Source of the DNA: Lentzea guizhouensis
GTDB taxonomy: Bacteria > Actinomycetota > Actinomycetes > Mycobacteriales > Pseudonocardiaceae
Assembly (NCBI RefSeq): GCF_001701025.1
Contig: NZ_CP016793.1
Coordinates: 1,302,001-1,366,000, forward strand
Direction of reading: 5' to 3'
Length of the DNA stretch: 64,000 nucleotides
The notes under the pieces are model-generated. The model searched no databases. It was not told the DNA's origin and saw only the letters and a list, made by a program, of their open reading frames with translations. The number at the start of each line of letters is the position of its first letter. The stretch's first letter is position 1. Shown here piece by piece: positions 50,842 through 51,727 of the stretch. A program made the translations under genes and the position numbers.

Positions 50842-50902
50842 TCCCGCTTGCCCCCGTCCGTCACCGACGTATTCTCTTGTCGGTGACGGACGGGAGGCAG
50901 CG

Positions 50903-51727
50903 ATGACGGTGACCGAGGTGCTGGCCAGGCTGGCCGCGCTCGAAGACCCCAAGGCACGCGCCGTGAACGAGAAGCACGGCGACGACCACGGCGTGAACCT
51001 GGGCAAGCTCCGCGCGCTGGCCAAGGAGCTCAAGACCCAGCAGGACCAAGGGCCTGTGTCGAGGTCCATGTTCGCGACAGCCGGGCCTGAGGCGGCCCCT
51101 GGGGGCACGGCTGGGCAGCCCACGTACAACACCGGTACGCGGGCTGCCCAGCCGCACCGCCAGGAACCACCTCAGGCGCGACTCTCATCGAACGGGACCT
51201 CGACACAGGCCCTTGCCGTGCAACTGTGGGCGACCGGCGACACGGCCGCACGGCTGGTGGCGTTGCTGATCTGCCGCCCCAAGGCGTTCACCCGCGACGA
51301 GCTCGACACGATGCTGCGCGAGGCGCACAAGCCCAAGGTGCACGACTGGCTCGTGAACTACGTCGTGAAGAAGAGCGCCCACGCCGAGGACCTGCGCGTG
51401 ACGTGGTTCGCCGACCCGGACCCCGTGGTGGCGAGCGCCGGGTGGGCGTTGACGGTCGACCGGGTGGCGAAGAAGCCGGAGGGCCTCGACCTCGACGGGC
51501 TGCTGGACGTCGTCGAGGAGGAGATGCGCGACGCCCCGCCACGACTGCAGTGGGCGATGAACCACTGCCTGGCGCAGATCGGGATCGAGCACCCGGAGCT
51601 GCGGGAGCGGGCGGTCGACATCGGCGAGCGGCTGGAAGTGCTCAAGAACTACCCGACGCCGCCGAACTGCACCTCGCCGTTCGCGCCGGTCTGGATCACC
51701 GAGGTGGTGCGCCGCCAGAACGCCTGA
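50903..51727 (+). CDS. AlkD-like DNA alkylation repair protein carrying an in-frame palindromic insertion
   Basis: A 274-residue frame. Residues 1-48 (NEKHGDDHGVNLGKLRALAKELKTQ) and ~104 onward (LAVQLWATGDTAARLVALLI, KVHDWLVNYVVKKS, WFADPDPVVASAGWAL, WAMNHCLAQIGIEHPE) are a HEAT-like alkylation repair fold that removes alkylated bases. Between them ~55 Gly/Pro/Gln-rich residues are encoded by a 169-bp palindrome (51047-51215). Removing it would join the two halves at the expected place. The insertion keeps the frame open, so a protein with an added loop may still be made; its activity is uncertain. Confidence 0.82.
   Translation: MTVTEVLARLAALEDPKARAVNEKHGDDHGVNLGKLRALAKELKTQQDQGPVSRSMFATAGPEAAPGGTAGQPTYNTGTRAAQPHRQEPPQARLSSNGTSTQALAVQLWATGDTAARLVALLICRPKAFTRDELDTMLREAHKPKVHDWLVNYVVKKSAHAEDLRVTWFADPDPVVASAGWALTVDRVAKKPEGLDLDGLLDVVEEEMRDAPPRLQWAMNHCLAQIGIEHPELRERAVDIGERLEVLKNYPTPPNCTSPFAPVWITEVVRRQNA
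51047..51215. mobile_element. MITE-like 169-bp palindromic element inside the AlkD-like gene
   Basis: The ends are exact 21-bp inverted repeats (CAAGGGCCTGTGTC... at 51047-51067 and its complement at 51195-51215). The interior is also nearly self-complementary through to the centre (CGTAC-aacaccg-GTACG, 51123-51139), for example GGCTGGGCAGCCC against GGGCTGCCCAGCC. Because of this, both strands encode a similar peptide (QGPVSRS near the start, TSTQAL near the end). No transposase is encoded and no clear target duplication was found. It looks like a non-autonomous element or a REP-like hairpin. Confidence 0.8.

Follow-up and report, generated by a model that had tools for sequence, protein, structure and literature searches.

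The best-known palindromic MITEs inserted in frame are those of Rickettsia. The excerpted accounts describe the Rickettsia palindromic elements (RPEs) as palindromic repeats of about 105-150 bp, located in frame within unrelated protein genes and carrying a conserved peptide per family (PMC10969869, PMC2229807). One of the same excerpts reports ORFs fused in frame to host ORFs for the small bacterial MITEs ERIC, RU-2 (YPAL) and Correia-NEMIS (PMC2229807), while REPs are given a length of 20-40 bp in a further excerpt (PMC3733652).

Here we analyse a palindromic element, of a family that occurs in many soil actinobacteria, that lies in frame inside a repair-type gene of an actinobacterial window, the window being the whole 64,000-nucleotide stretch studied, taken from a contig of 9,997,872 bp. 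The identity of the element is well supported. The complete explanation, mechanistic steps included, is in our judgement very probably correct: the element is a foldback MITE of the IS5 type, non-autonomous, whose transposition hit a CTAG-like site in an AlkD/AlkF-like gene.

The insertion and its host gene

The host gene (50903..51727, plus strand) encodes a HEAT-repeat protein of 274 residues, insert included, that matches PF08713 (DNA_alkylation, E 7.2e-21) and was placed in an alignment of 24 orthologues. An earlier note on this DNA had called the gene AlkD-type; the closest solved structures in sequence and fold are 1t06 and 3zbo (AlkF), with AlkD itself less close. The reading frame is open across the whole insert, the downstream remainder has neither stop nor frameshift, and 23 relatives align along the gene. 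Immediately upstream, a second hairpin (50845-50902), whose 24-nt arms are 88% complementary and enclose a 10-nt loop, takes up the short interval from the stop of an M6-peptidase gene to the start of the alkD/F-like gene, and may be a terminator or an operator.

All 23 other genomes of the genus contain the gene and lack the insert, their matches splitting the query into residues ~1-48 and 102-274. The orthologue alignment places the break at QQD|LAVQLW, so that the earlier note had the LAVQLW side right and set the other side slightly too early, at KTQ. At the empty site of the nearest relative we read GACCTCGCG, while the window reads GACC-AA-[163 bp]-TT-GCC. Relative to the empty site the window has therefore gained one dinucleotide and one core, a net insertion of 165 bp (163 + 2), or 55 codons. 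The 169 bp first proposed also counts the outer C, the outer G and one dinucleotide, all of which are target sequence; the proposed gain of about 55 codons without a stop agrees with the data. In the protein, the 55 inserted residues QGPVSRSMFATAGPEAAPGGTAGQPTYNTGTRAAQPHRQEPPQARLSSNGTSTQA correspond to codons 49-103 (51047..51211, plus strand).

The MITE core of 163 bp, GGGCCTGTGTCGAGG...CCTCGACACAGGCCC, spans 51050..51212, its boundaries being defined by 83 other full copies and by the empty sites. It is flanked by the dinucleotides AA (51048..51049) and TT (51213..51214), which we compared with the flanks of 84 copies. Each 21-bp end consists of an 18-bp TIR, a flanking dinucleotide and one target base: target C, AA and TIR on the left (51047..51067, plus strand), and TIR, TT and target G on the right (51195..51215, minus strand). 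The two are exact inverted repeats, as originally described. The description as a perfect palindrome holds for these ends only, since complementarity is 79% over the whole arms (51047-51127 and 51135-51215), which 7 nt separate. In the RNA fold this spacer is the apical loop AACACCG (51128..51134, plus strand), within the 13-mer TACAACACCGGTA (51125-51137). The folded element strand reaches -139.8 kcal/mol, compared to -71.2 +/- 4.0 for 200 shuffles, none of which folds as well (z -17). As had been noticed, no stop interrupts the corresponding frame of the opposite strand either; the peptide encoded there is only partly similar.

Structure prediction with AlphaFold, using the 24-row alignment, gave a best model of five with a mean pLDDT of 80.9 and 170 of 274 residues at or above 90; the other four models ranged from 75.1 to 60.5. 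In the best model, residues 50-98 fall below a pLDDT of 50 and lie between helices 33-48 and 96-110. The protein is thus predicted to keep its repeat fold and to carry the insert as a disordered loop, in line with the flexible loop suggested in the earlier note. Both the production of the insert-bearing protein and its tolerance stand as predictions.

A dispersed family with IS5-like ends

At least eight copies are present in the genome itself: five are full, with cores of 156-163 bp, and three are shorter but still have both ends. Matches at E <= 1e-3 were found in 22 of 24 genomes of the genus, own genome included, and none in the remaining two (G016 and G019). At the same threshold, and counting the own genome and genus, a survey that scored two candidates per genome found matches in 85 of 297 genomes of the family, distributed over 18 of 46 genera. 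A plasmid collection returned no match to the element.

Among the 85 full genus copies examined, 84 had recognisable ends, L201 being dropped for lack of them. These copies are not all independent; L172 and L180, for example, share one orthologous site. Core lengths are 162 bp (52 copies), 163 bp (19), 164 bp (8) and other values (5). The flanks are TA/TA in 48 of the 84, and 31 of these 48 read C-TA-[element]-TA-G, that is, CTAG on both sides; the remaining 36 include 27 with TA on one side only. Inverted-complement flanks other than TA occur in four copies, the one in the window among them (AA/TT twice, CA/TG and AG/CT), and a single CG/CG copy shows a direct repeat other than TA/TA. Although TA is its own reverse complement, empty sites in relatives hold a single such dinucleotide, which fits a 2-bp duplication. 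For the window copy, whose AA/TT flanks form no direct repeat, the duplication has to be read from the family: AA and TT probably derive by change from a TA that had been duplicated. Among IS5-family elements, CTAG/TA targeting goes with the IS427-group label, which is putative for this family.

Relatives of 163-164 bp in Micromonospora have the same ends and central motif, with diverged arms. Exact matches to the 13-mer occur in 70 of the 84 genus copies and, among the Micromonospora copies examined, in 6 of 7; other Pseudonocardiaceae genera keep it exact in only 11 of 60 copies, and the apical loop was consequently dropped as a family-wide mark. Two-sided base changes were found at 33 of 66 hairpin pairs across 83 distinct copies (shuffle mean 16, maximum 21), a count inflated by the kinship of the copies.

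Ends and arms diverge differently with distance. Identity to the window copy is 0.84 for ends and 0.93 for arms within the genus, and 0.49 and 0.80, respectively, in 40 copies of other genera, with arms above ends in 40/40; the contrast is overstated, because ends were compared ungapped, arms gapped, and the copies had been picked by similarity. The two ends of one copy still match each other at 16-20 of 20 positions in 38 of these 40 (boundaries chosen by that match), which indicates that both ends change together; we cannot tell whether intramolecular correction or co-selection with a transposase is responsible. The other-genus loci L321-L340 and L380-L419 keep the size (~160-165 bp) and much of the arms, and carry quite different terminal repeats. 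These repeats look as if they had been re-fitted to other transposases.

A candidate partner was found in another genome of the genus (G009). Locus L266 is an element of 1042 bp, bounded by GGGCCTGTATCGAAGTCG and its imperfect inverse, with ACTA/TAGT flanks and hence TA on both sides. Its ends match the commonest family TIR at 16/17 and 14/17 terminal bases, and the TIR of the window copy with one base less. The transposase lies in two separate frames whose pieces match IS5-family NF033580, PF13340 and PF01609; activity of L266 is putative because of this split. In addition, Micromonospora sp. RP3T has three contig ends with the exact 18-bp TIR, and the sequence inside it is 93% similar to part of another genome, where a DUF4096 open frame overlaps the matched stretch. 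We detected no intact partner IS in the own genome, where neither of the two loci examined (L245 and L264, from five PF13340 matches) carries the TIR, and resident IS elements of other genera gave no MITE-matching TIRs in 30 loci (of 93 PF13340 matches) from nine genomes.

Taken globally, the element is short, has no transposase gene, has 18-bp TIRs and is present in several genomic copies, and through L266 it shares its ends with an IS5-family element. Together with the empty orthologous sites and the TA flanks, this supports the non-autonomous transposable element offered as one option in the earlier note, and the search of the genome and its relatives proposed there recovered the copies expected of one.

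Landing sites, open frames and rival readings

The 163-bp core plus TA makes 165 bp, or 55 codons, and the frame in CTA phase is open in both orientations in 19/19 copies with the 163-bp core, other frames being open in at most 3 of the 19. A DNA screen of 144 copies (84 + 20 + 40) detected in-frame read-through in five, at four independent sites: the AlkD/AlkF-like gene of the window; the start of an NRPS condensation domain (L172/L180, also L304/L305), at an orthologous site shared by two species, G005 and G021; a ROK regulator, where the element separates the HTH part from the ROK part (L330); and an 847-aa ORF without a Pfam match (L331). All five have the 163-bp core in one orientation and one frame, with diverged peptides at L330 and L331. 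The family is, then, a palindromic repeat found in frame within unrelated protein genes. Eight further loci passed the screen (L160, L184, L321, L323, L333, L340, L384 and L416) and were judged by eye to be shadow frames, with weaker signals or a better frame elsewhere. The frame-plot candidates L181, L231, L183, L228, L168, L005, L194 and L222 proved on reading not to be intact in-frame insertions.

Protein searches with the insert peptide extended this set. P0003 and P0004 represent one conserved hypothetical gene in two deposited strains, and 24/24 genus genomes match that gene split on either side of the insert. P0002 is a GDPD enzyme with the insert inside an apparent signal peptide, and was the only protein returned by a search for long carriers. 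P0005, a GH42 fragment, is a weaker case because the fragment begins inside the insert. The reverse-orientation peptide found one protein, without a Pfam domain, on a 947-bp contig. An orientation bias of the in-frame copies is suggestive only: since the first search used the forward peptide, what supports the bias is three independent cases at the DNA level in addition to the window.

Is the open frame maintained as coding sequence? Stop-making changes in the 163-bp class, both orientations together, number 0 against 4.7 expected. However, the 162-bp class, read in a frame that no in-frame insertion could use, shows a similar deficit (1 against 4.8, p 0.048), and of 82 changes 56 are non-synonymous, 58 being expected. 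Coding selection on the open frame was accordingly rejected. No peptide-specific selection was detected by these tests, a result that bears on the domesticated insert envisaged in the earlier note. As the copies share ancestry and the stop-avoidance tests gave no coding-specific signal, the openness of the frame may simply be inherited.

Many copies lie next to stop codons. With the frames of flanking genes called by a test of GC by codon position, the stop of a neighbouring gene is formed by TA and the first G of the element in 48 of 84 genus copies, on both sides in 15 of them, and a stop at the junction occurs in 10/20 and 24/40 copies of other genera. As background we took the ordinary CTAG sites of 206.5 kb of sequence from the genus (the window and 41 loci), not a random sample because many loci are orthologous neighbourhoods; there a stop occurs at 21 of 49 sites and on both sides at 2 of 49. 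Targeting of stop codons beyond CTAG is not significant for at least one stop (p 0.15). The double-stop class is weakly above background (Fisher p 0.029), and the phase of genes reading towards the element differs with weak significance (67/77 vs 23/34, p 0.033). Preference for CTAG and the elimination of harmful insertions together suffice to account for most of the stop pattern. At L231 and L181 the left flank is CA, which turns the expected TAG stop into a sense codon; the upstream protein (TetR-like by eye) would extend into the element by a few residues at L231 and further at L181.

Mechanistically, an IS5 transposase acting in trans would have moved the MITE into the gene, duplicating TA. 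Translation would run through the insert, since CTA encodes leucine and the frame GGG CCT... stays open over 55 codons. The peptide, in turn, would form a disordered loop between two helices of a protein that still folds, and the TA flanks of the window copy would later have become AA and TT. Elsewhere, the CTAG preference would place the element at TAG stops, with its first G restoring the stop.

The most serious rival accepts the transposition and disputes its outcome. The insertion may have been damaging, with a frame open by chance or inheritance, a protein that is misfolded, degraded or inactive, and a gene on its way out; we regard this as possible, though rather unlikely. The insert-bearing protein is known from one genome only (P0001 was a single member in the protein search), and dN/dS of the host gene is 0.17-0.26 between the window and six relatives, somewhat above the 0.11-0.19 of five relative-relative pairs. 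By rough arithmetic from these distances, with few changes, the window branch has a dN/dS of ~0.4 and its sister ~0.1, values that relaxed constraint fits as well as function. The gene would thus be constrained overall and perhaps relaxed on the window branch. On the other hand, the rest of the gene is intact and alignable with 23 relatives, the best predicted fold is retained, and two other in-frame insertions are each still present in a pair of species or strains (L172/L180 and P0003/P0004). Less likely again is a mobile hairpin kept to end or insulate transcription from both sides, with coding insertions as accidents, a role to which we give a small chance. The excess of double junction stops, the very stable fold and the two-sided base changes are what such a hairpin would show; for at least one stop, however, the excess is not clear, the copies being partly interdependent, the hairpin has no T run after it in the window sequence, and Rfam gave no match at the gathering score, only microRNA models far below cut-offs.

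The two remaining alternatives concern what the element is. The first, raised in the earlier note as a REP/BIME-like hairpin, is a repeat of REP/BIME type that a Y1 (RAYT) transposase would move; it shares with our family a hairpin repeated in many copies. We consider it highly improbable, given an element of ~163 bp with two 18-bp TIRs, TA/TA flanks in 48/84 copies and an IS5-type candidate partner, instead of a 20-40 bp palindrome lacking long TIRs and target duplication. That the segment is a native part of the repair protein, as its open frame might suggest, can practically be discarded: related DNA occurs at many unrelated loci, and the insert was found neither in the 23 genus orthologues, the comparison named beforehand as decisive, nor in any orthologue from the protein search, so that this reading is refuted within the genus sampled.

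A broader idea builds on the IS5-type MITE, namely that it has been shaped for harmless landing. Its CTAG target is often a TAG stop, which the first G would rebuild from either side; in CTA phase the 163-bp form would add 55 stop-free codons and a disordered peptide, such that hit genes still yield protein; and the arms are kept across genera while the TIRs change as if re-fitted to different transposases. We put this forward tentatively, as a speculation that is doubtful in its full form.

Comparison with known systems

In titles and abstract openings of the open-licence literature, we found no earlier description of this MITE family or of stop-rebuilding MITEs. In-frame palindromic MITEs in large actinobacterial genomes, combined with a candidate transposase family and empty sites, provide a testable system that bears on the gain of disordered protein segments through transposons, an NRPS being among the proteins concerned, and the CTAG/stop-codon geometry suggests how a dense family could spread with little damage.

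With the MITEs of IS5-family elements, the present family shares IS5-like TIRs (NF033580), TA flanks and the lack of a transposase gene; it differs by folding back along its entire ~163 bp and by having one frame that is open in either orientation. ERIC, RU-2 (YPAL) and Correia-NEMIS, compared here by description, belong to Enterobacteria and Neisseria, unlike this family. REP/BIME sequences are likewise dispersed palindromes, the present element having TIRs and TA flanks instead.

The closest precedent, judged by behaviour, is the RPEs. Both are palindromic repeats in frame inside unrelated protein genes, as far as the excerpted RPE accounts go. The present family, however, belongs to another phylum and has ends that match an IS5-family element with TA flanks, and its coding insertions are a minority (5/144), many other copies lying at stop codons. 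By this analogy, the actinobacterial IS5-type foldback MITE family is RPE-like in its apparent behaviour wherever an insertion falls into a gene in CTA phase.
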